Below are positions 1,701 through 38,500 of a stretch of DNA of 64,000 nt, in pieces (within the stretch, counting starts at the first letter, position 1; the number at the start of each line of letters is the position of its first letter). A program made the translations under genes and the position numbers. The notes under the pieces are model-generated. The model was not told the origin of the DNA. It was given only the letters and a program-made list of their open reading frames with translations, and made no database searches. The stretch spans positions 14,072,944 to 14,136,943 of the forward strand of contig NC_087083.1 in NCBI RefSeq assembly GCF_026151205.1, written 5' to 3'. This stretch comes from Bolinopsis microptera. Its lineage: Eukaryota > Ctenophora > Tentaculata > Lobata > Bolinopsidae.

Positions 1701-4700
1701 ATGACAAAACCAACAATAATTGAACCAATCGCAAATCCTGCTGTCGTGGCAAATTTTAACGGTTTGGAGAGACAAGGGAGCTACGGATCTATTAAAACTG
1801 ACTTTGAGGGAAATGGGGTCAAGTCGTTTGCTTTAGAGTAAGTTAAGTGTAGTTGTTGTATTATTGAGCTATTGATTAATCAAATAATTATAATTCAATT
1901 TTGACCATCTTCTATGTCTTAAGGACTGATAAAATTGTTTAAAATGAAAAGGAGCCATAAAAATGAGTTCAAAAGAAAGATATCAAACACGGTATTTACT
2001 GCATGATCCCCGGTCAGTCATTCCTAACTGTGTGCAACAATCTCGAAATGATGAATTTAAAAATATTATAACTGATTAGTGATAAAAATGGTTGTTAAAA
2101 GTAAAAATCTATTGCATTGACAACTTCAGGACCTCCCATGTGGAAATAGCTGTGCCGGACCTTGAAAGAACACTGACTCTGTTTCATACTGTCTCTATCG
2201 CTGTCGGACAAATCATCGGGTCAGGTAAGATTGTAAATGTAAATGTTCCCTTGTGTTTTACTTCTGTCATAGGATGACTATAGTGAGCAGCAGTGAGCAG
2301 CAGTTAGCAGCAGTGAGCAGCAGTGAGCAGCAGTTTCTTTGCACTATAGTCCTCCTGTGCTGTGCATTTTACAAATATATTATTAACGAAAACTTATGAT
2401 TTATTACTAATCGGTATCAAGCATAGCATCTTCTTCAGGTATCTTTATCTCTCCAAATGTTATCCTTAAAGGGGTCGGATCTATGGGGCTATCGTTAATC
2501 ATCTGGACTCTTGGCGGGCTACTTTCACTCTGCGGTAATACAATTTCTAAGATATGTGTGCCTGTAAATTCCTCGCAATACTATAACTACTTAACTGTAA
2601 TTACCATATGTTTTAGTCACCTAGTGGTTAGCAATTTGATTTGCTTAGTTAAAAAAATGCAAATGCATGAGATTTTATCAAATCATCGAACGTGTACTTC
2701 TTTTTTCATCATCTCTGTGAGTTGCGTAAAGACATGGTATAGATACAATTAAAAATCAAAAATTGTATCTATACCATTTTAAAATGTAGTAGTAGTAGTA
2801 GTAGTAAACCCGCGATGGGGTGGCATGTGCCTCAATAAAAATATTACAATCATTTATTATTATATCAATTTATCATTAAATATTTCAACAATAAAGAAAA
2901 TAAATGAATGTGATTATAAAACCGTTGTGCGCGCAGGAGCACTGTGTTTCGGAGAACTGGGAGCTATTTGTCCTAAAGCCGGTGGGGAGTATCAGTACAT
3001 TAAGATGACTTACGGGAGAATGGCTTCTTTTGCTAACCTCTGGGTTTTGCTTATTGTGAACTCCATGGGTAGGTGCCTGTGTTATTCAATCATTAATTAT
3101 CATTAATTATCATTATGGGTAGGTGCCTGTGTTATTCAATCATTAATTATCATTAATTATCATTATGGGTAGGTGCCTGTGTTATTCAATCATTAATTAT
3201 CATTATAGGTAGGTGACTGTGTTATTCAATCATTAATTATCATTATAGGTAGGTGACTGTGTTATTCAATCATTAATTATCATTAATTATCATTATGGGT
3301 AGGTGCCTGTGTTATTCAATCATTAATTATCATTATAGGTAGGTGACTGTGTTATTCAATCATTAATTATCATTATAGGTAGGTGACTGTGTTATTCAAT
3401 CATTAATTATCATTAATTATCATTATGGGTAGGTGCCTGTGTTATTCAATCATTAATTATCATTAATTATCATTATGGGTAGGTGCCTGTGTTATTCAAT
3501 CATTAATTATCATTAATTATCACTATGGGTAGGTGCCTGTGTTATTCAATCATTAATTATCATTAATTATCATTATGGGTAGGTGCCTGTGTTATTCAAT
3601 CATTATCATTAATTATCATTAATTATCATTAATTATCACTATGGGTAGGTGCCTGTGTTATTCAATCATTATCATTAATTATCATTAATTATCATTAATT
3701 ATCATTAATTATCATTAATTATCACTATGGGTAGGTGCCTGTGTTATTCAATCATTATCATTAATTATCATTAATTATCATTAATTATCATTAATTATCA
3801 CTATGGGTAGGTGCCTGTGTTATTCAATCATTATCATTAATTATCATTAATTATCATTAATTATCACTATGGGTAGGTGCCTGTGTTATTCAATCATTAT
3901 CATTAATTATCATTAATTATCATTAATTATCACTATGGGTAGGTGCCTGTGATATTCAATCAATAATTATCATTAATTATCACTATGGGTAGGTGCAGCT
4001 GTGTTATTCAATCATTAATTATCATTAATTATCATTATGGGTAGGTGCAGCTGTGTTATTCAATCATTAATTATCATTAATTATCATTATGGGTAGGTGC
4101 AGCTGTGTTATTCAATCATTAATTATCATTAATTATCATTATGGGTAGGTGCAGCTGTGTTATTCAATCATTAATTATCATTAATTATCATTATGGGTAG
4201 GTGCAGCTGTGTTATTCAATCATTAATTATCATTAATTATCATTATAGGTAGGTGCAGCTGTGTTATTCAATCATTAATTATCATTAATTATCATTATGG
4301 GTAGGTGCCTGTGTTATTCAATCATTAATTATCATTAATTATCATTATGGGTAGGTGCCTGTGTTATTCAATTAATTATCATTAATTATGTGCATTATTT
4401 CCTTCCAATAATAAAACTATGATATTGTAACTTTGTAAGGAGTCTTAGGATTAGAAATTATTGCTATGGCATCTTATGCACCATTTGCTAATTATTTGTT
4501 AATAAATCGTTAATTGCAGCAGTTATTTTCTAATTAATCTTTAATTGCAGCAGTTATTTTATAATTAACTGTTAATTGCAGCAGTGGCAGTGATTTCTCT
4601 CACTTTCTCAACCTACTTCCTATCCCTATTCATGGACCCGGGCTATGCTCACTTTGAATTCATCAAGAAAGTCGTCTCTGCACTAGCCATATGTGAGTGT

Positions 4701-7700
4701 CTAACTTTCAAGGTCTGAAGTTGAAGTGAAGTTCAAGTTTGAAGTTCAAGTTTTTATTAGATTACAAAAATCAATAACGATCCACCACCAAGATAACATT
4801 GGACGATAAACAGATGGCATTTTGGATAATCTTCTGTAATTAATTATAATCACGCCCTGCTGCAGACCTTAAACATGAACAGTCTCATATTTCATACTTC
4901 AAACACGCTTCTTATTCAAACGGTACTCCTAAGGTATTCCTAAGGTATTCCTAAGGTATTCCTAAGGTATTCCTAATGTATTCCTAATGTATTCCTAAGG
5001 TATTCCTAAGGTATTCCTAAGGTATTCCTAAGGTATTCCTAAGGTATTCCTAAGGTATTCCTAAGGTATTCCTAAGGTATTCCTAAGGTATTCCTAAGGT
5101 ATTCCTAAGGTATTCCTGAAGTATTCCTGAAGTGACCCTTATTTTTTCAGTGACAGTGGTTTCTATCTGTATGTACGGGACCAAGGCTGGTGTATGGGTA
5201 CAGAATGGGTTCACGATAACGAAGTTTGTGGCCCTTATTTTCCTGGTTTTTCTGGCCATCGCCTATCTGTGCCAAGGTCAGTCGTGTTTACCTTATATGG
5301 ACATTGAGCATCACGTGTTTACCTTATATGGGCATTACGTGGTACAGCGTGCATGTGGCGTTTACTGTTACCTGGTAGTTAATTTAGTCTTGCAATTATC
5401 CAAAACTAGCGAGTGGTGGATTCTGGATGATAATTTGTATAATTACAATCGGGAAACGTTTATGTTTGTGTTAGGAAGGTTACTGATTAGTTCAATTTGA
5501 AGTAAATTAGTAGAATTTGTAAACTAATGAATTCTAAAAAGGATGAATTATTATCATTATCTCAGTAATACGACTGAAACTAAATATCAACTTGCAGATA
5601 CTTCTGTAAGTCTACATAAAACTTCAATTTCATAAGTAGTCATCAAATCCAAAATTTACGACCAATTTCGCTAACATCTTTTGTTAATAAATATTAGATT
5701 CCACTTGAAACATATTTCAGTTAATCTTAAACCGTTGATTTGATGTATCTGCACGTAAATCAAAAAAGGAGAAATACAAATTCAGTAAATAAGGAACATT
5801 TACAGACTATAAAAATAATATTTTTAATTTTATATTTTATAAATTTAAACATCTCTCCCAGGACACACCGAGAATATTACGGCAGGATTTAAAGGTTCTA
5901 ATTTGAATGTTAGCGAATGGAGTGGAGCGTTACTGACCTCGCTGTGGGCTTATAACGGCTGGTAGGTACCACTTGTAACGGCTGGTAGGTACCACTTGTA
6001 ACGGCTGGTAGGTACCACTTGTAACGGCTGGTAGGTACCACTTGTAACGGCTGGTAGGTACCACTTGTAACGGCTGGTAAGTACCACTTGTAACGGCTGG
6101 TAGGTACCACTTGTAACGGCTGGTAGGTACCACTTGTAACGGCTGGTAGGTACCACTTGTAACGGCTGGTAGGTACCACTTGTAACGGCTGGTAGGTACC
6201 ACTTGTAACGGCTGGTAGGTACCACTTGTAACGGCTGGTAGGTACCACTTGTAACGGCTGGTAGGTACCACTTGTAACGGCTGGTAGGTACCACTTGTAA
6301 CGGCTGGTAGGTACCACTTGTAACGGCTGGTAGGTACCACTTGTAACGGCTGGTAGGTACCACTTGTAACGGCTGGTAGGTACCACTTGTAACGGCTGGT
6401 AGGTACCACTTGTAACGGCTGGTAGGTACCACTTATAACGGCTGGTAGGTACCACTTATAACGGCTGGTAGGTACCACTTGTAACTGCTGGTAGGTACCA
6501 CTTATAACGGCTGGTAGGTACCACTTATAACGGCTGGTAGGTACCACTTGTAACGGCTGGTAAGTACCACTTGTAACGGCTGGTAGGTACCACTTATAAC
6601 GGCTGGTAGGTACCACTTGTAACGGCTGGTAGGTACCACTTGTAACGGCTGGTAGCTACCACTTGTAACGGCTGGTAGGTACCACTTGTAACGGCTGGTA
6701 GGTACCACTTGTAACGGCTGGTAGGTACCACTTGTAACGGCCGGTAGGTACCACTTGTAACGGCTGGTAGGTACCACTTGTAACGGCTGGTAGGTTCCAA
6801 TGAAGGTACGGTTCCCAGTTGGAACCAGCCGAGTCTTATTCTAAAACTAAAAAATAAAAAGGACCCATGCGAGGACAATCTCTTCCTCTTCCACACCCTG
6901 AACCAGCTGCCACTTAAGGGGAGATACACCAAAAACGTTTTTGCTCCGAACATCGATTTTATTTTATATTATGGTTAAATAGACAAAAAGAATAAGATTA
7001 CACACCTTCAAAATTTTCAAAAAATATTCCCTCATCGAGAAAAAAAATATTTTTCTTTTTCGAAAATTTTTAAAATTTGGAGAAGTCTGTCACTGTAATA
7101 CCGATAGTTCGGCCATTTTTAAAGTTTTTTGGCTGATTTTTTTACTGAACATTACTTACAATCCGTACAAGAAGCCTTCAAAAGAATTATATAATTGAAC
7201 GATAAATGACGAAGTTACAGACCAAACAAGGTCGAAAAAATAAAAATTGAAATTTTTCCCACTTCTAAAGTTGTACATTTCACCAATCACCCGGGTCAGC
7301 AGATATCGCTTCAAAAATTCTTGTGAGTGTAGCTGATGATCATATCGAATTTTTCTCAGATTTGAGTTTTAAACTATGCAATGTGGCCTCAAACGACTTA
7401 GTAAAATTCATCGTAAAAAAGGGCAAAAAAAGGCAGATTTAAGGCTTAAAATGCCTATAACTCAAAAAGTATCAGTTTTTTTGAAATAATTTTTACAGAA
7501 TCGTAATCAGCTTGGTAAAACGAAAATATATTTTTTTCTCGATGAGGGAATATTTTTAGAAAATTGTGAAGGTGTGTAATCTTATTCTTTTTGTCTATTT
7601 AACCATAATATAAAATAAAATCGATGTTCGGAGCAAAAACGTTTTTGGTGTATCTCCCCTTAAGCGTTCATACACGACACATCTTACAACACTTACCATC

Positions 7701-10700
7701 ATCCGACATTACACATTCTGATTCCTCCGGCATCCTCCCACAGGAGTCAGGACTCAAGGACTGCCATACCCCAGAGGTAGACAAAGCATCCACATGCCAC
7801 CAGGCCCATACCAGCCTCTCTTATAAAAAAATAAAAAAAGGAAAAGCTCTTATCAATCAAGTAATTTATTTTTTCATTTGTTTCTTGGTTGCTCGATAAT
7901 GATACCGTAATTTTATTACAGGAACCATATCAGTATTGTCGCAAGCGAAGTAAAGAATCCTGAAAAGTAAGTTTAAGCATGTTAATGATTCATCTAAGTT
8001 TAAATTGTCATAACCAATGTATTTACCGTCACGTGCACGTCATTATAATTTAAGTCAAATTTTAGCACCAACCTCAAGAATGAAACATCTGACTTTAGTA
8101 TAGTAAACTCATTACGATATTTAAAATATATTTTCTTTCTATCTTTAGGAATGTACCACGAGCTTTACGATATTTAAAATATATTTTCTTTCTACCTCTA
8201 GAAATGTACCGCGGGCTCTGGTGACGTCCATGGTGTTGGTAACAATCACCTACATTATCATTAACCTGGCTTACCACACGCTCCTCTCACCTGCAGATCT
8301 CATCAGGTCCGAGTCAATCGCCGTGGTGAGCAAACTTACTATTTACCACTTTTCTATTTACCACTTTTCTATATTTACCAGTTTAATTTAAAACTTTATT
8401 TTACCAGCTTTATTTTGCCAGTTTTAATCCACCATTTTACTTCATTTTGCCACTTTGCTATTTATCAATTTACTATCAACCATGAACCATTTCGTTGGAA
8501 ATTAAAAAATGTTGTGTAAGTTTGACAAACAACATAATACATATAAATACAATAAATATACTTAAAATAATAAAACTCATCAGTACGCCGGTGAAAAGTT
8601 TTTCGCTGAGTACAGTGAGGGATGGCTGACATTTGCTCGGTACTTTTTCGGCGCTAGTGTGGCTATTTCTACTTTTGGAGCTCTTCTCTCCATCACTCTC
8701 TCCTCATCAAGGTAATATTTTTATTCAAGATTTGATTGATTTATGTTTTGTAATTACAATTATGTAATAAATATTCTATATACCTATTATATATTTATTA
8801 TTCACGAGTAAACATTGGCTGGTTACAATAATCCAGAACCAAATCAATCACGCTTGCCAGGTAGCCTTTTTCATTATCGCAGAGCTATATAATTCTATTA
8901 TTGATTATAAAATGAGATTTTGTACGATCTATTGGTTTGAATTCTACAAATCTGTTGTTGAGAGCAGAGTTATGGCTCCGTGAAGATTCTTGGTTTTGCG
9001 CTGTTCGTATTGTCGCGACCAGAAGTGACGAATATATATGTCCACACACTGCATGATACGGACAGGATCCTGTCAGGAAGTGATAAATAAATGTAATTAA
9101 TTTAGTTAATTAATTAATTAATCTGCAGGCTCCCGTACGCTGGGGCAGTGGAGGGAATGATGCCTACCTTGTTCGGTCTAGTATCAAAACGTAGCAAGAC
9201 CCCAGTTACCAGTCTGGCCTTCCTCGTAAGTTTTATCGTAAGTATTCATAAAAAGAGAAGGGAAAAGAAGTTGGTTGTAAATGAATAACACAGGTATATT
9301 CATAAAAAGAAGGGGACGAAGAAGTCTTTAATAAATGAATAACACAAGTATTCATACAAAGAGAGGGAACAAGAAATTTTTTCGTGAATATTTAATTACT
9401 GACTTAATGAATTAATAACGCAAGTATGAATAATATTTGGTTGTTGAATGTTTTATCGTAATTATTCATAAACAAAAGGGGAAAATTAAGTTTTTTTGTA
9501 TAAAAATATTTAATAACTGATTTAACAAATTTATTTAATAAATTAATAAAGCAAGTAGCTTGATGTAATGGAAGTATTCTTATACATGGTCATTCGCCAG
9601 ATTAGGTTAAAATATTATCATTCATTAAAATGATATAACATTCTTACCCATAGTTATGAATTCATTGACTTAAAAAATTACCAGAATTTGTTTAATTGTT
9701 GCTTGACGTCAACAAGATCTTGAACTAAATTAACTAATATATCAATAATTTAATTAAAAAATATCTCACCAGGGAAGCTGCTCATTTGTGTGTGTCTGGC
9801 CTAGCAACATTGGGGATCTTATCCAGTACGTGGGTTTCATGTCCTGGACATTCTGGGGTCTGTGCTTTGTGGCTGTTATTGTGCTGCGCTATAAGTTACC
9901 TGACATACCCCGTCCCTTCAAGGTATGTTAACAAGTTATCTGACATACCCCGCCCCTTCAATGTATGTTAACAAGTTACCTGACATACCCCGCCCCTTCA
10001 AGGTATGTAAACAAGTTACCTGACATACCCCGCCCCTTCAAGGTATGTTAACAAGTTACCTGACATACCCCGCCCCTTCAAGGTATGTTAACAAGTTACC
10101 TGACATACCCCGCCCCTTCAATGTATGTTAACAAGTTACCTGACATACCCCGCCCCTTCAAGGTATGTAAACAAGTTACCTGACATACCCCGCCCCTTCA
10201 AGGTATGTTAACAAGTTACCTGACATACCCCGCCCCTTCAAGGTATGTTAACAAGTTACCTGACATACCCCACCCCTTCAAGGTATGTTAACAAGTTACC
10301 TGACATACCCCGCCCCTTCAAGGTATGTTAACAAGTTACCTGACATACCCCGCCCCTTCAATGTATGTTAACAAGTTACCTGACATACCCCGCCCCTTCA
10401 ATGTATGTTAACAAGTTACCTGACATACCCCGCCCCTTCAAGGTATGTAAACAAGTTACCTGACATATCCCGCCCCTTCAAGGTATGTTAACAAGTTACC
10501 TGACATACCCCGCCCCTTCAAGGTATGTTAACAAGTTACCTGACATACCCCGCCCCTTCAAGGTATGTTAACAAGTTACCTGACATACCCCGCCTCTTCA
10601 AGGTATGTTAACAAGTTACCTGACATACCCCGCCCCTTCAATGTATGTTAACAAGTTACCTGACATACCCCGCCCCTTCAAGGTATGTTAACAAGTTACC

Positions 10701-13700
10701 TGACATACCCCGCCCCTTCAAGGTATGTTAACAAGTTACCTGACATACCCCGTCCCTTCAAGGTATGTTAACAAGTTACCTGACATACCCCGCTCCTTCA
10801 AGGTATTTTAACAAGTTACCTGACATACCCCGCCCCTTCAAGGTATGTTAACAAGTTACCTTACATACCCCGCCCCTTCAAGGTATGTTAACAAGTTACC
10901 TGACATACCCCGCCCCTTCAAGGTACGTAAACAAGTTACCTGACATACCCCACCCCTTCAAGGTACGTTAACAAGTTACCTGACATACCCCGCCCCTTCA
11001 AGGTATTTTAACAAGTTACCTGACATACCCCGCCCCTTCAAGGTATGTTAACAAGTTACCTGACATACCCCGCCCCTTCAAGGTATGTTAACAAGTTACC
11101 TGACATACCCCGCCCCTTCAAGGTATGTTAACAAGTTACCTGACATACCCCGCCCCTTCAAGGTATGTTAACAAGTTATCTGACATACCCCACCCCTTCA
11201 AGGTATTTTAACAAGTTACCTGACATACCCCGCCCCTTCAAGGTATGTTAACAAGTTACCTGACATACCCCGCCCCTTCAAGGTACGTCAACAAGTTACC
11301 TGACATACCCCACCCCTTCAAGGTATGTTAACAAGTTACCTGACATACCCCACCCCTTCAAGGTATGTTAACAAGTTACCTGACATACCCCACCCCTTCA
11401 AGGTATGTTAACTAAAAACGTCTCTTAAAACACTCTAAAACACTCTAAACACTCTAAAACACTCTAAACATTCTAAAACACTCTAAAACACTCTAAACAT
11501 TAACCAATTTATTGGAATTCCGCACGTTACAATTTACAAAGTGCCCTCCCAGATCCCCCTGATTATACCGGTAGTAGCGAGCCTGACCTCCCTCTACCTG
11601 GTTGTAGGCTCCCTCTACGCTAACCCTCCTCCCCAGATCCCCCTGATAATACCGGTAGTAGCGAGCCTGACCTCCCTCTACCTGGTTGTAGGCTCCCTCT
11701 ACGCTAACCCTCCTCCCCAGATCCCCCTGATAATACCGGTAGTAGCGAGCCTGACCTCCCTCTACCTGGTTGTAGGCTCCCTCTACGCTAACCCTCCTCC
11801 CCAGATCCCCCTGATAATACCGGTAGTAGCGAGCCTGACCTCCCTCTACCTGGTTGTAGGCTCCCTCTACGCTAACCCTCCTCCCCAGATCCCCCTGATA
11901 ATACCGGTAGTAGCGAGCCTGACCTCCCTCTACCTGGTTGTAGGCTCCCTCTACGCTAACCCTCCTCCCCAGATCCCCCTGATAATACCGGTAGTAGCGA
12001 GCCTGACCTCCCTCTACCTGGTTGTAGGCTCCCTCTACGCTAACCCTCCTCCCCAGATCCCCCTGATAATACCGGTAGTAGCGAGCCTGACCTCCCTCTA
12101 CCTGGTTGTAGGCTCCCTCTACGCTAACCCTCCTCCCCAGATCCCCCTGATAATACCGGTAGTAGCGAGCCTGACCTCCCTCTACCTGGTTGTAGGCTCC
12201 CTCTACGCTAACCCTCCTCCCCAGATCCCCCTGATAATACCGGTAGTAGCGAGCCTGACCTCCCTCTACCTGGTTGTAGGCTCCCTCTACGCTAACCCTC
12301 CTCCCCAGATCCCCCTGATAATACCGGTAGTAGCGAGCCTGACCTCCCTCTACCTGGTTGTAGGCTCCCTCTACGCTAACCCTCCTCCCCAGATCCCCCT
12401 GATAATACCGGTAGTAGCGAGCCTGACCTCCCTCTACCTGGTTGTAGGCTCCCTCTACGCTAACCCTCCTCCCCAGATCCCCCTGATAATACCGGTAGTA
12501 GCGAGCCTGACCTCCCTCTACCTGGTTGTAGGCTCCCTCTACGCTAACCCTCCTCCCCAGATCCCCCTGATAATACCGGTAGTAGCGAGCCTGACCTCCC
12601 TCTACCTGGTTGTAGGCTCCCTCTACGCTAACCCTCCTCCCCAGATCCCCCTGATAATACCGGTAGTAGCGAGCCTGACCTCCCTCTACCTGGTTGTAGG
12701 CTCCCTCTACGCTAACCCTCCTCCCCAGATCCCCCTGATAATACCGGTAGTAGCGAGCCTGACCTCCCTCTACCTGGTTGTAGGCTCCCTCTACGCTAAC
12801 CCTCCTCCCCAGATCCCCCTGATAATACCGGTAGTAGCGAGCCTGACCTCCCTCTACCTGGTTGTAGGCTCCCTCTACGCTAACCCTCCTCCCCAGATCC
12901 CCCTGATAATACCGGTAGTAGCGAGCCTGACCTCCCTCTACCTGGTTGTAGGCTCCCTCTACGCTAACCCTCCTCCCCAGATCCCCCTGATAATACCGGT
13001 AGTAGCGAGCCTGACCTCCCTCTACCTGGTTGTAGGCTCCCTCTACGCTAACCCTCCTCCCCAGATCCCCCTGATAATACCGGTAGTAGCGAGCCTGACC
13101 TCCCTCTACCTGGTTGTAGGCTCCCTCTACGCTAACCCTCCTCCCCAGATCCCCCTGATAATACCGGTAGTAGCGAGCCTGACCTCCCTCTACCTGGTTG
13201 TAGGCTCCCTCTACGCTAACCCTCCTCCCCAGATCCCCCTGATAATACCGGTAGTAGCGAGCCTGACCTCCCTCTACCTGGTTGTAGGCTCCCTCTACGC
13301 TAACCCTCCTCCCCAGATCCCCCTGATAATACCGGTAGTAGCGAGCCTGACCTCCCTCTACCTGGTTGTAGGCTCCCTCTACGCTAACCCTCCTCCCCAG
13401 ATCCCCCTGATAATACCGGTAGTAGCGAGCCTGACCTCCCTCTACCTGGTTGTAGGCTCCCTCTACGCTAACCCTCCTCCCCAGATCCCCCTGATAATAC
13501 CGGTAGTAGCGAGCCTGACCTCCCTCTACCTGGTTGTAGGCTCCCTCTACGCTAACCCTCCTCCCCAGATCCCCCTGATAATACCGGTAGTAGCGAGCCT
13601 GACCTCCCTCTACCTGGTTGTAGGCTCCCTCTACGCTAACCCTCCTCCCCAGATCCCCCTGATAATACCGGTAGTAGCGAGCCTGACCTCCCTCTACCTG

Positions 13701-16700
13701 GTTGTAGGCTCCCTCTACGCTAACCCTCCTCCCCAGATCCCCCTGATAATACCGGTAGTAGCGAGCCTGACCTCCCTCTACCTGGTTGTAGGCTCCCTCT
13801 ACGCTAACCCTCCTCCCCAGATCCCCCTGATAATACCGGTAGTAGCGAGCCTGACCTCCCTCTACCTGGTTGTAGGCTCCCTCTACGCTAACCCTCCTCC
13901 CCAGATCCCCCTGATAATACCGGTAGTAGCGAGCCTGACCTCCCTCTACCTGGTTGTAGGCTCCCTCTACGCTAACCCTCCTCCCCAGATCCCCCTGATA
14001 ATACCGGTAGTAGCGAGCCTGACCTCCCTCTACCTGGTTGTAGGCTCCCTCTACGCTAACCCTCCTCCCCAGATCCCCCTGATAATACCGGTAGTAGCGA
14101 GCCTGACCTCCCTCTACCTGGTTGTAGGCTCCCTCTACGCTAACCCTCCTCCCCAGATCCCCCTGATAATACCGGTAGTAGCGAGCCTGACCTCCCTCTA
14201 CCTGGTTGTAGGCTCCCTCTACGCTAACCCTCCTCCCCAGATCCCCCTGATAATACCGGTAGTAGCGAGCCTGACCTCCCTCTACCTGGTTGTAGGCTCC
14301 CTCTACGCTAACCCTCCTCCCCAGATCCCCCTGATAATACCGGTAGTAGCGAGCCTGACCTCCCTCTACCTGGTTGTAGGCTCCCTCTACGCTAACCCTC
14401 CTCCCCAGATCCCCCTGATAATACCGGTAGTAGCGAGCCTGACCTCCCTCTACCTGGTTGTAGGCTCCCTCTACGCTAACCCTCCTCCCCAGATCCCCCT
14501 GATAATACCGGTAGTAGCGAGCCTGACCTCCCTCTACCTGGTTGTAGGCTCCCTCTACGCTAACCCTCCTCCCCAGATCCCCCTGATAATACCGGTAGTA
14601 GCGAGCCTGACCTCCCTCTACCTGGTTGTAGGCTCCCTCTACGCTAACCCTCCTCCCCAGATCCCCCTGATAATACCGGTAGTAGCGAGCCTGACCTCCC
14701 TCTACCTGGTTGTAGGCTCCCTCTACGCTAACCCTCCTCCCCAGATCCCCCTGATAATACCGGTAGTAGCGAGCCTGACCTCCCTCTACCTGGTTGTAGG
14801 CTCCCTCTACGCTAACCCTCCTCCCCAGATCCCCCTGATAATACCGGTAGTAGCGAGCCTGACCTCCCTCTACCTGGTTGTAGGCTCCCTCTACGCTAAC
14901 CCTCCTCCCCAGATCCCCCTGATAATACCGGTAGTAGCGAGCCTGACCTCCCTCTACCTGGTTGTAGGCTCCCTCTACGCTAACCCTCCTCCCCAGATCC
15001 CCCTGATAATACCGGTAGTAGCGAGCCTGACCTCCCTCTACCTGGTTGTAGGCTCCCTCTACGCTAACCCTCCTCCCCAGATCCCCCTGATAATACCGGT
15101 AGTAGCGAGCCTGACCTCCCTCTACCTGGTTGTAGGCTCCCTCTACGCTAACCCTCCTCCCCAGATCCCCCTGATAATACCGGTAGTAGCGAGCCTGACC
15201 TCCCTCTACCTGGTTGTAGGCTCCCTCTACGCTAACCCTCCTCCCCAGATCCCCCTGATAATACCGGTAGTAGCGAGCCTGACCTCCCTCTACCTGGTTG
15301 TAGGCTCCCTCTACGCTAACCCTCCTCCCCAGATCCCCCTGATAATACCGGTAGTAGCGAGCCTGACCTCCCTCTACCTGGTTGTAGGCTCCCTCTACGC
15401 TAACCCTCCTCCCCAGATCCCCCTGATAATACCGGTAGTAGCGAGCCTGACCTCCCTCTACCTGGTTGTAGGCTCCCTCTACGCTAACCCTCCTCCCCAG
15501 ATCCCCCTGATAATACCGGTAGTAGCGAGCCTGACCTCCCTCTACCTGGTTGTAGGCTCCCTCTACGCTAACCCTCCTCCCCAGATCCCCCTGATAATAC
15601 CGGTAGTAGCGAGCCTGACTTCCCTCTACCTGGTTGTAGGCTCCCTCTACGCTAACCCTCCTCCCCAGATCCCCCTGATAATACCGGTAGTAGCGAGCCT
15701 GACCTCCCTCTACCTGGTTGTAGGCTCCCTCTACGCTAACCCTCCTCCCCAGATCCCCCTGATAATACCGGTAGTAGCGAGCCTGACCTCCCTCTACCTG
15801 GTTGTAGGCCCCCTCTACGCTAACCCTCCTCCCCAGATCCCCCTGATAATACCGGTAGTAGCGAGCCTGACTTCCCTCTACCTGGTTGTAGGCTCCCTCT
15901 ACGCTAACCCTCCTCCCCAGATCCCCCTGATAATACCGGTAGTAGCGAGCCTGACTTCTCTCTACCTGGTTGTAGGCTCCCTCTACGCGAACCCTCTCCC
16001 AAGTCTTATCTGGATCGTGGCTTGCCTGGTGGCTGTTCCTGTGTACTACGGATACGTGGACAACGAGAAGATGTGTCATCTTTGGATGGGTGGGTGGTTT
16101 TTAATACTCTGTATTTTAGTCACCAGCCTTGCTACACTCTTTATTCTTTTATTATAGTTGTGGTTTAACTTCACTTTATGTTTTACCACACTCTTTATTT
16201 TGTTTTAGTCTATAAAACTCTTTAAGTCTTCTAGATTATCGTTTGAACGAACGCTTAAGAACTTATTCAGGCACATTCGTTTTGTTCCTTAATTTTTGTG
16301 TACATGTGTCAGAAGGAATCTCCCTCAAATATTGCTAATCATTAAACAGTGGTTTATTATTTTATTGTATTTTGAGCTTAATTAATACAACCCTCACGTG
16401 ATTGCATGACGCGTATTGTACTCCTTTATAATATTGTACTCCTTGATGATAAGGGTTAATAAGCAGCCCTGATCTGAACTTCAGACCACAGTTATAATGA
16501 GTAATTATGTAGGGCCCTCAATTGAGTTACAAAATCTGGTATAACTTATTATTATCAGCAGCTGGGGAACACGTCTTCTTTTTCTTGTAGATAAGAGAAT
16601 TATGTTGAGATATTCCTACAAACATTCCGGGACACTTTCCCTCATACGTACAATTAGTGAATCTATAAATAGAAGATCGAGTAATTGTGTTTTATTTCAG

Positions 16701-17200: not shown

Positions 17201-17206
17201 AATAAA
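17201..17206 (+). terminator. Candidate LAT poly(A) signal
   Basis: AATAAA 445 nt after the LAT stop codon. Further AATAAA copies at 17754, 17784 and 17791 are equally possible sites. Confidence 0.35.
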
Positions 17207-18316: not shown

Positions 18317-18493
18317 AAGCCGTAGTACATACATATCACATTACACCGGAGCCTACAAAGTGCAATCTCCTCTAGTCGCGTCGATCTGCGCGTTGTATAT
18401 TTATAAGTTTATATAAGCGCGCGGCCCAGATTGGAGGAAACCACACTCTGCAAGTTCGATCCAGTGCAATGCTACATGTACGTACTACGGCTT
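18317..18493. mobile_element. Small TA-flanked MITE
   Basis: A 177-bp element starts AAGCCGTAGTAC and ends GTACTACGGCTT, flanked on both sides by TA. The inverted repeats continue imperfectly for about 40 bp. TA duplication with short inverted termini fits a Tc1/mariner-like non-autonomous element. It contains no coding sequence. Confidence 0.7.
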
Positions 18494-26545: not shown

Positions 26546-26587
26546 AATCCTTCAACAATTAACAAAACTAATAGACACTAAACAGCT

Positions 26588-29500
26588 ATGTCAAACGAAC
26601 GAGAACATGCACAAGTAGTGGGAATAGTTATAGTGATAGTGTCCCTTATCTCCTTCGTTCAGACATCAGTTATTCTATCCGTTATCTGCTCCAACAAAGA
26701 CATGTTCAGGAGTTCGTATCATGTTCTTATTGGTAAGATAAAACATTAAACATTACTTTATTTAATAAAAACTGGAGTAGAAAAATAAATATGTGAATCA
26801 TGTTTAACATCCCTCAGGGAACCTAATGATAGCAGACTTGATAGTCATCATGTTTAACATCCCTCAGGGAACCTAATGATAGCAGACTTGATAGTCATCA
26901 TGTTTAACATCCCTCAGGGAACCTAATGATAGCAGACTTGATAGTCATCATGTTTAACATCCCTCAGGGAACCTAATGATAGCAGACTTGATAGTCATCG
27001 TGTTTAACATCCCTCAGGGAACCTAATGATAGCAGACTTGATAGTCATCATGTTTAACATCCCTCAGGGAACCTAGTGATAGCAGACTTGATAGTCATCA
27101 TGTTTAACATCCCTCAGGGAACCTAATGATAGCAGACTTGATAGTCATCATGTTTAACATCCCTCAGGGAACTTAATGATAGCAGACTTGATAGTCATCA
27201 TGATTAACATCCCTCAGGGAACCTAATGATAGCTGACTTGATAGTCATCATGTTTAACATCCCTCAGGGAACCTTATGATAGCAGACTTGATAGTCATCA
27301 TGTTTAACATCCCTCAGGGAACCTAATGATAGCAGACTTGATAATCATCATGTTTAACATCCCTCAGGGAACCTAATGATAGCAGACTTGATAGTCATCA
27401 TGTTTAACATCCCTCAGGGAACCTAGTGATAGCAGACTTGATAGTCATCATGTTTAACATCCCTCAGGGAACCTAATGATAGCAGACTTGATAGTCATCA
27501 TGTTTAACATCCCTCAGGGAACCTAATGATAGCAGACTTGATAGTCATCATGTTTAACATCCCTCAGGGAACCTAATGATAGCAGACTTGATAGTCATCA
27601 TGTTTAACATCCCTCAGGGAACCTAATGATAGCAGACTTGATAGTCATCATGTTTAACATCCCTCAGGGAACCTAATGATAGCAGACTTGATAGTCATCA
27701 TGTTTAACATCCCTCAGGGAACCTAATGATAGCAGACTTGATAGTCATCATGTTTAACATCCCTCAGGGAACCTAATGATAGCAGACTTGATAATCATCA
27801 TGTTTAACATCCCTCAGGGAACCTAATGATAGCAGACTTGATAGTCATCATGTTTAACATCCCTCAGGGAACCTAATGATAGCAGACTTTATAGTAATCA
27901 TGTTTAACATCCCTCAGGGAACCTAATGATAGCAGACTTGATACTCATCATGTTTAACATCCCTCAGGGAACCTAATAATAGCAGACTTGATAGTCATCA
28001 TGTTTAACATCCCTCAGGGAACCTAATGATAGCAGACTTGATAGTCATCATGTTTAACATCCCTCAGGGAACCTAATGATAGCAGACTTGATAGTCATCA
28101 TGTTTAACATCCCTCAGGGAACCTAATGATAGCAGACTTGATAGTCATCATGTTTAACATCCCTCAGGGAACCTAATGATAGCAGACCTGATAGTCATCA
28201 TGTTTAACATCCCTCAGGGAACCTAGTGATAGCAGACTTGATAGTCATCATGTTTAACATCCCTCAGGAAACCTAATGATAGCAGACTTGATAGTCATCA
28301 TGTTTAACATCCCTCAGGGAACCTAATGATAGCAGACTTGATAGTCATCATGTTTAACATCCCTCAGGGAACCTAATGATAGCAGACTTGATAGTCATCA
28401 TGTTTAACATCCCTCAGGGAACCTAATGATAGCAGACTTGATAGTCATCATGTTTAACATCCCTCAGGGAACCTAATGATAGCAGACTTGATAGTCATCA
28501 TGTTTAACATCCCTCAGGGAACCTAATGATAGCAGACCTTGATAGTCATCATGTTTAACATCCCTCAGGGAACCTAATGATAGCAGACTTGATAGTCATC
28601 ATGTTTAACATCCCTCAGGGAACCTAATGATAGCAGACTTGATAGTCATCATGTTTAACATCCCTCAGGGAACCTAATGATAGCAGACTTGATAGTCATC
28701 ATGTTTAACATCCCTCAGGGAACCTAATGATAGCAGACTTGATAGTCATCATGTTTAACATCCCTCAGGGAACCTAATGATAGCAGACTTGATAGTCATC
28801 ATGTTTAACATCCCTCAGGGAACCTAATGATAGCAGACTTGATAGTCATCATGTTTAACATCCCTCAGGGAACCTAATGATAGCAGACTTGATAGTCATC
28901 ATGTTTAACATCCCTCAGGGAACCTAATGATAGCAGACTTGATAGTCATCATGTTTAACATCCCTCAGGGAACCTAATGATAGCAGACTTGATAGTCATC
29001 ATGTTTAACATCCCTCAGGGAACCTAATGATAGCAGACTTGATAGTCATCATGTTTAACATCCCTCAGGGAACCTAATGATAGCAGACTTGATAGTCATC
29101 ATGTTTAACATCCCTCAGGGAACCTAATGATAGCAGACCTGATAGTCATCATGTTTAACATCCCTCAGGGAACCTAATGATAGCAGACTTGATAGTCATC
29201 ATGTTTAACATCCCTCAGGGAACCTAATGATAGCAGACTTGATAGTCATCATGTTTAACATCCCTCAGGGAACCTAATGATAGCAGACTTGATAGTCATC
29301 ATGTTTAACATCCCTCAGGGAACCTAATGATAGCAGACTTGATAGTCATCATGTTTAACATCCCTCAGGGAACCTAATGATAGCAGACTTGATAGTCATC
29401 ATGTTTAACATCCCTCAGGGAACCTAATGATAGCAGACTTGATAGTCATCATGTTTAACATCCCTCAGGGAACCTAATGATAGCAGACTTGATAGTCATC

Positions 29501-32500
29501 ATGTTTAACATCCCTCAGGGAACCTAATGATAGCAGACTTGATAGTCATCATGTTTAACATCCCTCAGGGAACCTAATGATAGCAGACTTGATAGTCATC
29601 ATGTTTAACATCCCTCAGGGAACCTAATGATAGCAGACTTGATAGTCATCATGTTTAACATCCCTCAGGGAACTAATGATAGCAGACTTGATAGTCATCA
29701 TGTTTAACATCCCTCAGGGAACCTAATGATAGCAGACTTGATAGTCATCATGTTTAACATCCCTCAGGGAACCTAATGATAGCAGACTTGATAGTCATCA
29801 TGTTTAACATCCCTCAGGGAACCTAATGATAGCAGACTTGATAGTCATCATGTTTAACATCCCTCAGGGAACCTAATGATAGCAGACTTGATAGTCATCA
29901 TGTTTAACATCCCTCAGGGAACTTAATGATAGCAGACTTGATAGTCATCATGTTTAACATCCCTCAGGGAATCCTAATGATAGCAGACTTGATAGTCATC
30001 ATGTTTAACATCCCTCAGGGAACCTAATGATAGCAGACTTGATAGTCATCATGTTTAACATCCCTCAGGGAACCTAATGATAGCAGACTTGATAGTCATC
30101 ATGTTTAACATCCCTCAGGGAACCTAATGATAGCAGACTTGATAGTCATCATGTTTAACATCCCTCAGGGAACCTAGTGATAGCAGACTTGATAGTCATC
30201 ATGTTTAACATCCCTCAGGGAACCTAATGATAGCAGACTTGATAGTCATCATGTTTAACATCCCTCAGGGAACCTAATGATAGCAGACTTGATAGTCATC
30301 ATGTTTAACATCCCTCAGGGAACCTAATGATAGCAGACTTGATAGTCATCATGTTTAACATCCCTCAGGGAACCTAATGATAGCAGACTTGATAGTCATC
30401 ATGTTTAACATCCCTCAGGGAACCTAATGATAGCAGACTTGGTAGTCATCATGTTTAACATCCTCAGGGAACCTAATGATAGCAGACTTGATAGTCATCA
30501 TGTTTAACATCCCTCAGGGAACCTAATGATAGCAGACTTGATAGTCATCATGTTTAACATCCCTCAGGGAACCTAATGATAGCAGACTTGATAGTCATCA
30601 TGTTTAACATCCCTCAGGGAACCTAATGATAGCAGACTTGATAGTCATCATGTTTAACATCTCTCAGGGAACCTAATGATAGCAGACTTGATAGTCATCA
30701 TGTTTAACATCCCTCAGGGAACCTTATGATAGCAGACTTGATAGTCATCATGTTTAACATCCCTCAGGGAACCTTATGATAGCAGACTTGATAGTCATCA
30801 TGTTTAACATCCCTCAGGGAACCTAATGATAGCAGACTTGATAGTCATCATGTTTAACATCCCTCAGGGAACCTAATGATAGCAGACTTGATAGTCATCA
30901 TGTTTAACATCCCTCAGGGAACCTAATGATAGCAGACCTGATAGTCATCATGTTTAACATCCCTCAGGGAACCTAATGATAGCACACTTGATAGTCATTA
31001 TGTTTAACATCCCTCAGGGAACCTAATGATAGCAGACTTGATAGTCATCATGTTTAACATCCCTCAGGGAACCTAATGATAGCAGACTTGATAGTCATCA
31101 TGTTTAACATCCCTCAGGGAACCTAATGATAGCAGACTTGATAGTCATCATGTTTAACATCCCTCAGGGAACCTAATGATAGCAGACTTGATAGTCATCA
31201 TGTTTAACATCCCTCAGGGAACCTAATGATAGCAGACTTGATAGTCATCACGTTTAACATCCCTCAGGGAACCTAATGATAGCAGACTTGATAGTCATCA
31301 TGTTTAACATCCCTCAGGGAACCTAATGATAGCAGACTTGATAGTCATCATGTTTAACATCCCTCAGGGAACCTAATGATAGCAGACTTGATAGTCATCA
31401 TGTTTAACATCCCTCAGGGAACTTAATGATAGCAGACTTGATAGTCATCATGTTTAACATCCCTCAGGGAACCTAATGATAGCAGACTTGATAGTCATCA
31501 TGTTGAACGGCCAGGTAGCGTAGTTGGTTAATCATCGGATTTGTAATCGTGAGATTGCGAGTTCGAAACCCACTGCCTGCCTAGTCGTGGGGTGAGTGTC
31601 GTCGACATTCAGCTAAAGATCCTGAGTGGTCTATGCAGTCCCCGGTCTACTCAGCCGAATATTCGAGAAATCGTGTGTGAGGGTTAAATGAGGAGCTGTC
31701 CATTGCAGCGAAGTCTCGGGCGAAGAAAGTATGGTACACACTACCTTAACCGTCACTGGCCTAATTAAATCCTTCGGCTTCCTGTAATTGGCTAGTTACA
31801 CTTGTGTAACATTGTGGCTGTTGGAATACTCCGAAGTAAAATAAGTGTGAGATTAAAAAAATAGCAGACTTGATAGTCATCATGTTTAACATCCCTCAGG
31901 GAACCTAATGATAGCAGACTTGATAGTCATCATGTTTAACATTCCTCAGGGAACCTAATGATAGCAGACTTGATAGTCATCATGTTTAACATCCCCCAGG
32001 GAACCTAATGATAGCAGACTTGATAGTCATCATGTTTAACATCCCTCAGGGAACCTAATGATAGCAGACTTGATAGTCATCATGTTTAACATCCCTCAGG
32101 GAACCTAATGATAGCAGACTTGATAGTCATCATGTTTAACATCCCTCAGGGAACCTAATGATAGCAGACTTGATAGTCATCATGTTTAACATCCCTCAGG
32201 GAACCTAATGATAGCAGACTTGATAGTCATCATGTTTAATATCCCTCAGGGAACCTAATGATAGCAGACTTGATAGTCATCATGTTTAACATCCCTCAGG
32301 GAACCTAATGATAGCAGACTTGATAGTCATCATGTTTAACATCCCTCAGGGAACCTAATGATAGCAGACTTGATAGTCATCATGTTTAACATCCCTCAGG
32401 GAACCTAATGATAGCAGACTTGATAGTCATCATGTTTAACATCCCTCAGGGAACCTAATGATAGCAGACTTGATAGTCATCATGTTTAACATCCCTCAGG

Positions 32501-35500
32501 GAACCTAATGATAGCAGACTTGATAGTCATCATGTTTAACATCCCTCAGGGAACCTAATGATAGCAGACTTGATAGTCATCATGTTTAACATCCCTCAGG
32601 GAACCTAATGATAGCAGACTTGATAGTCATCACGTTTAACATCCCTCAGGGAACCTAATGATAGCAGACTTGATAGTCATCATGTTTAACATCCCTCAGG
32701 GAACCTAATGATAGCAGACTTGATAGTCATCATGTTTAACATCCCTCAGGGAACCTAATGATAGCAGACTTGATAGTCATCATGTTTAACATCCCTCAGG
32801 GAACCTAATGATAGCAGACTTGATAGTCATCATGTTTAACATCCCTCAGGGAACCTAATGATAGCAGACTTGATAGTCATCATGTTTAACATCCCTCAGG
32901 GAACCTAATGATAGCAGACTTGATAGTCATCATGTTTAACATCCCTCAGGGAACCTAATGATAGCAGACTTGATAGTCATCATGTTTAACATCCCTCAGG
33001 GAACCTAATGATAGCAGACTTGATAGTCATCATGTTTAACATCCCTCAGGGAACCTAATGATAGCAGACTTGATAGTCATCATGTTTAACATCCCTCAGG
33101 GAACCTAATGATAGCAGACTTGATAGTCATCATGTTTAACATCCCTCAGGGAACCTAATGATAGCAGACTTGATAGTCATCATGTTTAACATCCCTCAGG
33201 GAACCTAATGATAACAGACTTGATAGTCATCATGTTTAACATCCCTCAAGGAACCTAATGATAGCAGACTTGATAGTCATCATGTTTAACATCCCTCAGG
33301 GAACCTAATGATAGCAGACTTGATAGTCATCATGTTTAACATCCCTCAGGGAACCTAATGATAGCAGACTTGATAGTCATCATGTTTAACATCCCTCAGG
33401 GAACCTAATGATAGCAGACTTGATAGTCATCATGTTTAACATCCCTCAGGGAACCTAATGATAGCAGACTTGATAGTCATCATGTTTAACATCCCTCAGG
33501 GAACCTAATGATAGCAGACTTGATAGTCATCATGTTTAACATCCCTCAGGGAACCTAATGATAGCAGACTTGATAGTCATCATGTTCAACATCCCTCAGG
33601 GAACCTAATGATAGCAGACTTGATAGTCATCATGTTTAACATCCCTCAGGGAACCTAATGATAGCAGACTTGATAGTCATCATGTTTCAACATCCCTCAG
33701 GGAACCTAATGATAGCAGACTTGATAGTCATCATGTTTAACATCCCTCAGGGAACCTAATGATAGCAGACTTGATAGTCATCATGTTTAACATCCCTCAG
33801 GGAACCTAATGATAGCAGACTTGATAGTCATCATGTTTAACATCCCTCAGGGAACCTAATGATAGCAGACTTGATAGTCATCATGTTTAACATCCCTCAG
33901 GGAACCTAATGATAGCAGACTTGATAGTCATCATGTTTAACATCCCTCAGGGAACCTAATGATAGCAGACTTGATAGTCATCATGTTTAACATCCCTCAG
34001 GGAACCTAATGATAGCAGACTTGATAGTCATCATGTTTAACATCCCTCAGGGAACCTAATGATAGCAGACTTGATAGTCATCATGTTTAACATCCCTCAG
34101 GGAACCTAATGATAGCAGACTTGATAGTCATCATGTTTAACATCCCTCAGGGAACCTAATGATAGCAGACTTGATAGTCATCATGTTTAACATCCCTCAG
34201 GGAACCTAATGATAGCAGACTTGATAGTCATCATGTTTAACATCCCTCAGGGAACCTAATGATAGCAGACTTGATAGTCATCATGTTTAACATCCCTCAG
34301 GGAACCTAATGATAGCAGACTTGATAGTCATCATGTTTAACATCCCTCAGGGAACCTAATGATAGCAGACTTGATAGTCATCATGTTTAACATCCCTCAG
34401 GGAACCTAATGATAGCAGACTTGATAGTCATCATGTTTAACATCCTCAGGGAACCTAATGATAGCAGACTTGATAGTCATCATGTTTAACATCCCTCAGG
34501 GAACCTAATGATAGCAGACTTGATAGTCATCATGTTTAACATCCCTCAGGGAACCTAATGATAGCAGACTTGATAGTCATCATGTTTAACATCCCTCAGG
34601 GAACCTAATGATAGCAGACTTGATAGTCATCATGTTTAACATCCCTCAGGGAACCTAATGATAGCAGACTTGATAGTCATCATGTTTAACATCCCTCAGG
34701 GAACCTAATGATAGCAGACTTGATAGTCATCATGTTTAACATCCCTCAGGGAACCTAATGATAGCAGACTTGATAGTCATCATGTTTAACATCCCTCAGG
34801 GAACCTAATGATAGCAGACTTGATAGTCATCATGTTTAACATCCCTCAGGGAACCTAATGATAGCAGACTTGATAGTCATCATGTTTAACATCCCTCAGG
34901 GAACCTAATGATAGCAGACTTGATAGTCATCATGTTTAACATCCCTCAGGGAACCTAATGATAGCAGACTTGATAGTCATCATGTTTAACATCCCTCAGG
35001 GAACCTAATGATAGCAGACTTGATAGTCATCATGTTTAACATCCCTCAGGGAACCTAATGATAGCAGACTTGATAGTCATCATGTTTAACATCCCTCAGG
35101 GAACCTAATGATAGCAGACTTGATAGTCATCATGTTTAACATCCCTCAGGGAACCTAATGATAGCAGACTTGATAGTCATCACGTTTAACATCCCTCAGG
35201 GAACCTAATGATAGCAGACTTGATAGTCATCATGTTTAACATCCCTCAGGGAACCTAATGATAGCAGACTTGATAGTCATCACGTTTAACATCCCTCAGG
35301 GAACCTAATGATAGCAGACTTGATAGTCATCATGTTTAACATCCCTCAGGGAACCTAATGATAGCAGACTTGATAGTCATCATGTTTAACATCCCTCAGG
35401 GAACCTAATGATAGCAGACTTGATATTTATCATGTTTAACATCCCTCAGGGAACCTAATGATAGCTGGTTACTATGGTTACTATGGTTACTATGGTTACT

Positions 35501-38500
35501 ATGGTTACTAATGATAGCAGACTTGATAGTTTCGATAATGGGACTCTTCTTCAGAGGACCGGGTCTGATAGTAGAAAGCTATGCTAAGGGTTCCTTCCTG
35601 TCCAGCTTGTGTGATATTGTTCCTTTTGTTACATGGAGCGCACTTTACTGTGCCTCTCTCGCAGGTATTATACCTCACTTTACCTCCCTTTGCCTCTCTC
35701 GCAGGTATTTAATTAATTAACCTTAATACGATTATTATTTAAGGAGTTTAATTACTTACAGTTTTATAGTATAGTTGCTTTATATTGTTTGATGTCAACC
35801 TTTTCCACTGCAACTGATCATGATTATTAACAATTGAGGACAGCTGCACTGTAATTCGGACCTTTAGGCTTTTAGGGTCTGCCCACACTACGCCTCTATT
35901 CCCCGAATGTCTGCCCACACTATGCCATGTTTTGACGGGCCACATGGCGTGGGTCAAAAAAACCGGATTCACACAACGAGGCGCGTAGTGTGGGCAGAGC
36001 TCCCGCCAGTTGGTGTGGAAACTCTCGGGGAATTCTGGTACGGATTTTAAAAATCCTTGCCTCTATGTGTGAATCCGGTTTTTTGACCCACGCCATGTGG
36101 CCCGTCAAAACATGGCGTAGTGTGGGCAGACATTCGGGGAATAGAGGCGTAGTGTGGGCAGACCCTTACCGATAGTTGAAATTCGACATTTAGCGTCATC
36201 TAGCGCTATCTGGCGACATTGGAAAGGTGCCACGCAATTAGCGGCATTGTCGCTAATTGGCGCTATCTAGCGTCATCTAGCGTCATCTATCATCATTTGG
36301 CGTCATTTCACGCCAGATGACGCTAGATGACGCTAAATTTCGAATTTCAACTATCGGTAAAGGCAAAGGTCCTCATTTGTTAAGAATTCTGCTATGGAGG
36401 TTCTTAACAAGATACATACGATAGTAAGTTAATTAGCTGATTAATTAAATTGTATAAATTAATAGAAATGTTTATAAAATGTTAAATAATTACTGCTCAG
36501 TGCTGTGTATTACTTACAACAGAATGTTGGCACTAACGAACCCGCTGCAGTACAAAGTCAATGTTACGATAACTAACTCTATGAAATTGGTAAATATGTT
36601 TTATCGTTTTAAACGCTGGTAACTAGATCTCCTAGGCAAATTAAATAACTAGGCTGTTACGAGGATTATCTGCTCGATACACACTTTGGAATCATAAAAC
36701 CCATCTTTATAGATGTATTTTTGACCGTTGAAGCGATTAAAAGTTGTCTCATGTAATTTGTAGTCAATTTTCACGGTCAAACCGCTAAAATTGGTTTCAT
36801 TTTGATGTTTTTTGACATTTTAACATAAAAATTTGACCAAACCCATAATCATGGGTAGAGTGGACCGCTGCCAGTGTCTCTCTTTTCCAAACAAAATGAA
36901 ATGATATTAATTTGAATAACCGTCCGCAAATGCAAATTGATACCGAGATTGAAATCGGTCGCTCGCTTTTCCCATTCATTTACAATTGTAATAGATTAAG
37001 AAGAACTACCCGAAGGCAGCTGTACTCGGCAATAAAGATTGGGAAAAGAGAGACACTGGCAGCGGTCTACTCTACCCATGATTATGGGTTTTGATTAAAT
37101 AGTATAGTATAGAATGTATAATTAAGAGGCACGGTCATGCTTGCCAGCACTGTGATAGACGCTTTGGTAGTCAATTATTGCCTACATTCAAGTGTCCGTA
37201 GAATCAGAAGCTTTAAAGATACAGCCATTTCAGACCACAGGTCTTAAAGATAATTGTTAAGACTTTAGTTTACATTATATCAAAAAAATAATTTAACGTC
37301 ATCATCACCACTTGATGACGTCATCAAATTAACCGTTTTTAAAACTTGATTTTTGACAAAGTAATAATACCTTTTCAAATCGATTTTACATCATTAAGGA
37401 GCAATTTTATTCAAAATTTGAGGGGAAATTGAAGTTAGATAATTGTTCAAGCATTCTGAAAATCTACCGTAAAGTTTTCCTACCTTGCTCCTTTATAAAG
37501 ATATTCGCTATTGAAGTGCTTTTCTAAAGAATAATTTCACAAAAATACAAAAGTTATGATTTAGTATTCTCTGGTGTTGGGCCATGCCTTGTCGAGTTGT
37601 GGACTGTGGAGCTCAGTTCTGCTTCCTATAGGTCTAAATTGTGCATTAGGCTGGTTTAAAAGTTGAAAATAGAAAAGGACACGCCCAAATTGATATAAAA
37701 TCGCTAAAATCACTGAAAATTGCTATTTTCACCATTTGTCATCTTTGGAGTCCCGTTGTAATCCAAGTTCTTTTTGAAATCTTTTGAAACTTTGCATGCT
37801 TATCAATCAATTTATAAAACACCAATATGCAAAACTTTACGGTGATTCAATATTGAATGCGCACGCAACGTCCGCTCAAAGTTTGCACGTGCGAAAGGTG
37901 AGAATTCTGCTCATTCGTGAATTCGAACAAATTCTGCTTTCCCACGACAGTTAAATGGCATTATATATGAATTTAATGTTAACTTGAATGAGTATATAGT
38001 GGCATATTCAGTCAGATATGCTTACCTAAACACAAGTCTAAATAGATCTGGAATTCGCCGTTTCCGTTCATACTGTATAAACTACAATTTAGGTTCTTTA
38101 CGCAGTATTCTAACTTTGACTTAACTCGTAAAATTATTACTTGTTTCCATTTTTTTCTAAATTAAATCTGAAGCTTTAAAAAACACATAAACTTGATGAA
38201 ACACGTAAATTAAATGAAAAACTTAAATTTGAAAGGTTCTGATCACTTTAAAGTTTGTGCGCCCTTTTCCATCTCCTCTTCTTGCACCTACCCCATCTCA
38301 CCTTCTTGCACCTCTGTCATAGAGAAAAGTACCAGTATCTGAACAGCAGAGAGCACCAAAGCAGTGCTTATAACAGACGACGTGGGAGCAAAAGCGACCA
38401 TTGCCGACCCGGTCATCCCTCCTATCATACCTAATGAGGAGGCGGTGCTACTCCCTAGAGCAAAGTCTTTTGTTCCAAAGTAGTTCACGTCGTAGAGTAC

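Follow-up and report, generated by a model that had tools for sequence, protein, structure and literature searches.

Minisatellites that carry the exon-intron boundaries of their host genes in the ctenophore Bolinopsis microptera

We analysed a stretch of 64,000 nucleotides from Bolinopsis microptera (contig NC_087083.1, here C12:14072944-14136943; hereafter the window), in which an SLC7-type amino acid transporter gene (LAT) and a G protein-coupled receptor gene (GPCR) carry large tandem arrays whose units contain splice junctions of the same gene. These minisatellites were probably founded by tandem duplications that crossed an exon-intron boundary with breakpoints placed by chance; they would have expanded later, and they lengthen the introns. 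In five LAT arrays only the copy that touches the exon keeps the reading frame, similar arrays are found in several other genes, and random placement fits their frequency there.

Junction-bearing arrays in LAT and in the GPCR gene

Arrays were located with Tandem Repeats Finder (TRF) and junctions were set by the gene model (Table 1). LAT has 13 predicted exons with GT-AG at 12 of 12 introns, and its spliced open reading frame encodes 525 amino acids (aa). The protein matched AA_permease_2 (PF13520) in Pfam at 3e-53 and solved SLC7 transporters in PDB, the best at 1.3e-92 (7ccs), and the displayed alignment was free of gaps at the arrayed junctions. The predicted LAT gene model is solid.

Among LAT intron arrays with a unit of at least 20 bp, six of seven included a junction, the exception being that of intron 11. 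The units hold exon and intron bases of one junction, which is the definition of a boundary-crossing tandem duplication. The arrays at the LAT and GPCR junctions also agree with the definition of minisatellites (head-to-tail copies of ~10-100 bp), with TRF units of 23-84 bp in 2-173 copies. The exon part of the LAT units was 4, 4, 13, 16, 30 and 80 bases, and this wide spread fits randomly placed breakpoints. In the two introns tested, LAT introns 4 and 12, donor and acceptor did not come from two copies of one segment, because the units differ at their two ends.

A sequence-only reading of the window had named eight junctions (the donors of LAT exons 4, 7 and 12, the acceptors of exons 5, 9 and 13, and the acceptor and donor of GPCR exon 2), and all of them lie in tandem copies. 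It counted at least five large and at least three small arrays; TRF found the five large and two of the small ones, and the pair at the GPCR exon 2 donor was seen by eye only. It also held that in each large array the terminal copy is the working junction. When LAT was spliced in silico at each matching array copy and the reading frame was scored, only the exon-touching copy kept the frame at the donors of exon 4 (1/25), exon 7 (1/36) and exon 12 (1/32) and at the acceptors of exon 5 (1/3) and exon 9 (1/2), so this rule stood in five LAT arrays. At the exon 13 acceptor the copies were not separable: all 53 leave an open frame, of 525-1981 aa, and the whole array is in frame, within an open frame of 1,556 codons. 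The rule failed for the GPCR acceptor array, where 0 of 160 matched copies gave an open frame through exon 3.

GPCR exon 3 joins in frame with the donor at 35664, the end of exon 2, and shows a Cys-to-Arg spacing of transmembrane segment (TM) 3 that we take to be like that of class A receptors. Those inner acceptors of the array that were translated hit stops in the following unit, and at the last array acceptor a stop is introduced by an insert with five TGGTTACTA between two ATGATAGC copies. Beyond this insert, acceptors predicted at 35518 or 35521 would restore an open frame with the loss of few TM2 residues; exons 1-3 joined through 35518 matched PF00001 at 2.1e-7 with 31.1 bits, just above the cut-off of 30.5. 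No close paralog of the GPCR gene was available for comparison of the acceptor, since outside the window the only scored hit was weak (C2:8121221, 32% identity).

Table 1. Features of the window and three donors followed by octamer tracts (a slash marks the splice junction or, at the three donors, the start of the tract)
Feature	Position in window	Strand	Remarks
LAT gene	1701-16157	+	13 exons
LAT exons 1-7	1701-1837, 2130-2224, 2439-2534, 2937-3068, 4582-4692, 5151-5276, 5862-5961	+	
LAT exons 8-13	7922-7966, 8202-8325, 8584-8711, 9129-9225, 9773-9922, 15921-16157	+	
LAT exon 4 donor array	3065-4389	+	TRF: 50-bp unit x27, ~4 exon bases per unit
LAT exon 5 acceptor array	4492-4585	+	TRF: 31 bp x3, 4 exon bases
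LAT exon 7 donor array	5949-6799	+	TRF: 23 bp x37, 13 exon bases
Insert in LAT intron 7	6835-7680		MITE-like by eye
LAT exon 9 acceptor duplication	8112-8217	+	TRF: 53 bp x2, 16 exon bases
LAT exon 12 donor array	9893-11412	+	TRF: 40 bp x38, 30 exon bases
LAT exon 13 acceptor array	11548-16000	+	TRF: 84 bp x53, ~80 exon bases, unit IPLIIPVVASLTSLYLVVGSLYANPPPQ
Dispersed repeat	18100-18900		
GPCR exon 1	26588-26732	+	ends in phase 1
GPCR exon 2 acceptor array (CCCTCAG/GGAACC)	26797-35465	+	TRF: 50 bp x172.7
(TGGTTACTA)x5 insert	35466-35510	+	within last copy, between ATGATAGC repeats
GPCR exon 2 donor, two copies 38 bp apart (GCCTCTCTCGCAG/GTATT)	35653-35706	+	by eye, no TRF row
GPCR exon 3	36501-36589	+	in-frame join with donor 35664
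Octamer/nonamer array	45483-45940		
LINE-like open reading frame	46530-50195	+	by eye, from translation
Donor of CAT-like transporter L024			GTGA/GTTACTAG; exon matches AA_permease 3e-6
Donor of second block gene, predicted membrane protein			GTAA/GTTACCAG; coding score 18.7
Donor at L076			GTCA/GTTACTAG; alternating 7-/8-bp units; exon coding score 29.6 in one frame

Comparison by eye with two LAT paralogs bears on the age of the introns. LAT introns 5, 6, 7 and 12 are also present in paralog A, and for this reason they appear to predate the arrays. Introns 4 and 8 are absent from paralog A, and intron 8 from paralog B too; judged from paralogs with no outgroup, gain of these two introns by duplication is possible. 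At the exon 12 donor of paralog A, (GTAACTTA)x46 begins exactly at the donor (L072, L073), and there is also an array with a 130-bp unit, which holds 81 exon-end bases, 79 of them identical to the exon (L072). This intron was chosen for its length and is in no count given here; it was read except for ~4.2 kb that lie between L072 and L073. The same donor in paralog B (L075) is free of arrays over the ~270 intron bases fetched. Because the paralog B donor is array-free and that of paralog A bears a different array, with a 130-bp unit, the exon 12 intron seems older than its arrays.

LAT intron 7 also contains an insert of ~0.85-0.86 kb with long inverted ends, resembling a miniature inverted-repeat transposable element (MITE). 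Many SLC7-type and class A GPCR matches in the genome (L009-L021, L028-L057) are single open frames spanning almost the whole profile, and intron-rich relatives, such as those of the window, stand beside them.

Array placement compared with random duplication

For the placement null, arrays were collapsed and the probability that a unit spans a junction was taken as 2(u-1)/(I+u-1), where u is the unit length and I the intron length. It assumes random duplication with survival only if intron is touched, exon-internal duplications being lost. Once collapsed, the arrayed LAT introns measure 121-481 nt, with one of 1132 nt, and because introns are this short random units often span junctions.

Outside LAT and the GPCR gene, 6 of 16 arrays spanned a junction against 4.87 expected (P=0.34); leaving out a doubtful array changed this to 5 of 15 against 4.81. 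An automated count with stricter rules, made on collapsed sequence, yielded 1/8 against 2.57 elsewhere and 4/6 against 2.39 in LAT and the GPCR gene (P=0.15). Enrichment at junctions was therefore not found in the genes outside those of discovery, in samples that are small and compatible with a modest excess. Outside LAT, random placement together with purifying selection accounts for the greater part of the pattern and perhaps for the whole of it.

The 16-array set is hand-made. It covers a 50-kb block chosen by random number, the first seven kinesin stretches from a randomly ordered list of 23, transporter loci taken by family, one myosin locus that was not chosen blindly and the MFS-like gene of the window. 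Most of its intron lengths come from the gene finder or from gaps between matches, the intron length at the L024 donor (300 nt) was assumed, and the identity of L064 is low, at 78%. Training of the gene finder used 47 sequences (58.5 kb) with few splice sites, one hand-typed donor being out of register. The automated count considered only introns with predicted exons scoring 6 or more on both sides; it lost the LAT exon 7 and exon 9 arrays, both junction arrays of the random block, the kinesin array and the CAT donor array, and it classed the GPCR array as intronic. There were 60 arrays with a period of at least 20 in L009-L075, most of them unclassified and outside introns with supported exons.

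Junction-crossing arrays were identified in genes of several kinds. A kinesin donor (L068) has a duplication of 53 bp x2 with 11 exon bases, seen by eye. In the random block, the acceptor array of the first gene, which encodes a predicted Cys-rich membrane protein, is 47 bp x42 with 26 exon bases, and a second predicted membrane-protein gene has a donor array of 42 bp x25 plus an octamer tract. In the CAT-like transporter L024, whose exons match AA_permease families, the acceptor array is 180 bp x1.9 and the donor array 149 bp x3.6. No boundary-crossing array was found in the myosin at C3:9153200, which was chosen for its suspiciously long open frame. An exon matched tens of times in a row, like LAT exon 13, was not seen by eye in the 217 Pfam match rows of the best candidates (myosin 73, kinesin 109, TCP1 35).

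Some further observations belong to these loci. A Pfam scan of the Cys-rich block gene gave no family, and the idea that the two block genes are sisters was dropped, their common match being weak and only 12 residues long. In the myosin locus L070, neighbouring matches to one profile region (105-167 and 102-167) at 812-1286 look like tandem alternative exons, and at 4084-4181 a 48-bp x2 duplication runs from intron base +2 (AACAG/GTTAGTCGG), abutting the donor without spanning it.

Tandem arrays make up 37% of the window and 16% of the randomly drawn block. The available part of the Hormiphora genome paper gives 13% tandem repeat by TRF (PMC8527503), and that of the Bolinopsis microptera genome paper gives 13 chromosome-scale scaffolds with 97.23% of the bases (PMC10232365). 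The window also has a long open reading frame that resembles, by eye, the endonuclease and reverse transcriptase of long interspersed nuclear elements (LINE), and a member of a dispersed repeat family with at least dozens of copies on many contigs (86-91% identity over the best-matching pieces).

The proposed course of events is as follows. Local tandem duplication, with breakpoints falling by chance on either side of an exon-intron boundary, would found an array, and slippage or unequal exchange would then expand it. A wholly exonic duplication would alter the protein and would tend to be purged by selection. A boundary-crossing one would be tolerated, because splicing at the exon-touching copy keeps the mRNA unchanged, and its other copies would turn into extra intron; the exon-proximal copies would be those used in splicing. 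In a minisatellite-rich genome with short introns, boundary-crossing arrays are expected to be common. Only 3 of the 14 listed junction-spanning arrays have a unit length divisible by 3, so there is no hint of reading-frame constraint, which fits spliced-out DNA. A second ingredient may be sequence-specific: the AGGT-containing octamer satellite (AGGTTACY)n, which lies directly behind several donors.

Octamer tracts at donors and rival explanations

Several results weigh against chance breakpoints as the whole explanation. LAT alone had 6 of 7 arrays spanning a junction against 2.59 expected (P=0.004, or 0.008 with the 0.86-kb insert of intron 7 removed), LAT being the gene of discovery; pooling all 24 arrays gave 13 against 7.91 (P=0.015), LAT and the GPCR gene being where the effect was noticed. 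Two SLC7 paralogs bear differing arrays at the same exon 12 donor. GTAAC/GTTAC was the top-enriched 5-mer among array units, with 17 of 107 distinct units against 4.5 expected (binomial 2.5e-6 before correction for 512 words). At three donors of different genes, sense-strand GTTACYAG-type tracts start 4 nt into the intron, and this fixed offset is not predicted by random duplication. The earlier claim that random minisatellites would not fall repeatedly on junctions agrees with LAT and finds no support in the other genes, so it is only partly right. The suggested process that duplicates DNA at splice sites found no support outside LAT as a general targeting, and it has some support in a narrower form, the tracts at these three donors.

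The octamer is dispersed over the genome. In the 264.65-Mb assembly (232 contigs), (AGGTTACY)3 had 3,667 overlapping exact matches, against 40 for a permuted octamer and 0 for the octamer read backwards. Octamer or nonamer arrays with a GGTTAC/GTAACC core occur genome-wide, among them L058-L062 (joined, 15.3-24.8 kb) and one in the window, and some octamer clusters have a higher-order spacing of ~150-160 bp, for example C1:765532-767807.

At all three donors (L024, the second block gene and L076) the exon end, donor and tract are repeated together. L076 was drawn from a pattern list with its flank still unseen; the exon there looks like TM1-TM2 of a GPCR, and Pfam gave no GPCR family and no family at all on this exon. 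Weaker cases are a tract at +9 at block position 20837, with weak coding signal, and one at ~+17 to +20 behind the first predicted innexin exon. In a post-hoc hand count of ten tracts with readable flanks, five were no more than ~20 nt from a donor, three of them better supported and two weak; the other five were not or not evidently at a donor, such as L077 and the innexin-intron tracts. On the assumption that 20 in every 300 intron bases qualify, this proximity has P=2.5e-4 for the five cases and 0.025 with the three better ones alone. Of three tracts picked before their flanks were seen, L076 was at a donor, L077 had none evident and L078 showed array only, which is uninformative. Only the octamer tracts, in a few cases, point to a process linked to splice sites.

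They could mean that arrays are made in a sequence-specific way at 5' splice sites, (AGGTTACY)n being seeded at or copied into donors and dragging the exon end into composites. We regard this as a tentative alternative, rather unlikely for the arrays as a whole. It agrees with the sense tracts at +4 behind the three donors, with the variant (GTAACTTA)n that starts exactly at the exon 12 donor of paralog A, and with the excess over the permuted octamer; but half of the ten tracts are not evidently near a donor, only one of the three pre-picked tracts is at one, and the LAT arrays of the window are not octamer tracts. The wider conclusion would be a donor-linked satellite with AG/GT in every unit, which arises at 5' splice sites or moves into them, expands sense-wise and pulls exon ends into composite arrays, intron DNA being made from splice sites genome-wide; this we consider doubtful, though not to be dismissed. 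Selection may also keep many equivalent splice sites, as a mutation buffer, for intron lengthening or as recursive splice sites. Over six arrays the copies showed 1 mismatch at GT/AG against an expected 7.57 at random dinucleotides, the 50-bp exon 4 array being omitted as its variable period broke the register, and YAG/GT in each octamer unit might serve as a ratchet site. However, this test was not significant (P=0.074), all but one copy in five LAT arrays and all 160 in the GPCR acceptor array are unproductive, and donor bases -1, +4, +5 and +7 vary among copies of the 40-bp array. The earlier proposal that junction copies are kept by selection is thus at most suggestive, and we think such selection very improbable.

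The exon 13 array would be a special case if it were coding, with upstream acceptors used and in-frame 28-residue hydrophobic repeats added, up to 1981 aa. Every one of its 53 copies is open, the period of 84 equals 28 codons, and its consensus unit combines CTAAC with a pyrimidine tract and CAG. But the last copy alone yields an SLC7 alignment without insertion, one period in three would be divisible by 3 by chance, and 13 differences from consensus over 53 copies are too few for a synonymous/non-synonymous comparison; a coding role is very improbable. It is least probable of all, and close to negligible, that the assembler made the arrays or their copy numbers. According to the available part of PMC10232365, the assembly that is the likely source was built from PacBio reads with wtdbg, gap closure and polishing by short reads, and such procedures can misjudge long arrays; the two- and three-copy versions, the gene-specific units and the variants between copies argue for real arrays, with exact copy numbers uncertain. 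Boundary-crossing duplication with chance breakpoints is the explanation that we favour.

Significance and comparison with known systems

Dozens of near-identical splice sites with a single productive one, that nearest the exon, amount to a natural experiment in spliceosome choice among identical sites, and the arrays show a route for intron growth. If the link between octamer and donors is true genome-wide, intron DNA would have a sequence-specific source in this early-branching lineage of animals, and the old question of intron growth and gain could be tested with RNA and population long reads. In the listed titles and abstract openings of the open-licence literature we found no description of splice-junction minisatellites in ctenophores. 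What is new to us is the scale of boundary-crossing duplication and the possible octamer link, single cases being already known.

The potato RdRp gene is such a case: as given in the part of PMC4974935 available, one tandem duplication across an intron-exon boundary created a new intron. As far as that account goes, the likeness is that the duplicated segment spans an existing boundary and that the splice signals are inherited from it; the difference is that there one duplication made a new intron, whereas here an intron is lengthened by as many as ~170 copies, with many junctions of several genes concerned. The same source describes intron gain through duplicated exon segments that contain AGGT (the Rogers model, ATP2A1 and 24-bp exonic repeats in fission yeast), and the part available of PMC2891723 has related cases of intron gain by such duplication in Drosophila. 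Within the limits of these accounts, our arrays are similar in that tandem copies provide splice sites and the surplus DNA becomes intron, AGGT being in each AGGTTACY unit, and they differ in that LAT introns 5, 6, 7 and 12, shared with paralog A, appear older than the arrays. With intronic minisatellites or variable number tandem repeats the LAT and GPCR arrays share tandem structure and high identity between copies; unlike them, each unit contains a splice junction of its host gene, and the sole productive site of five LAT arrays lies at one end.

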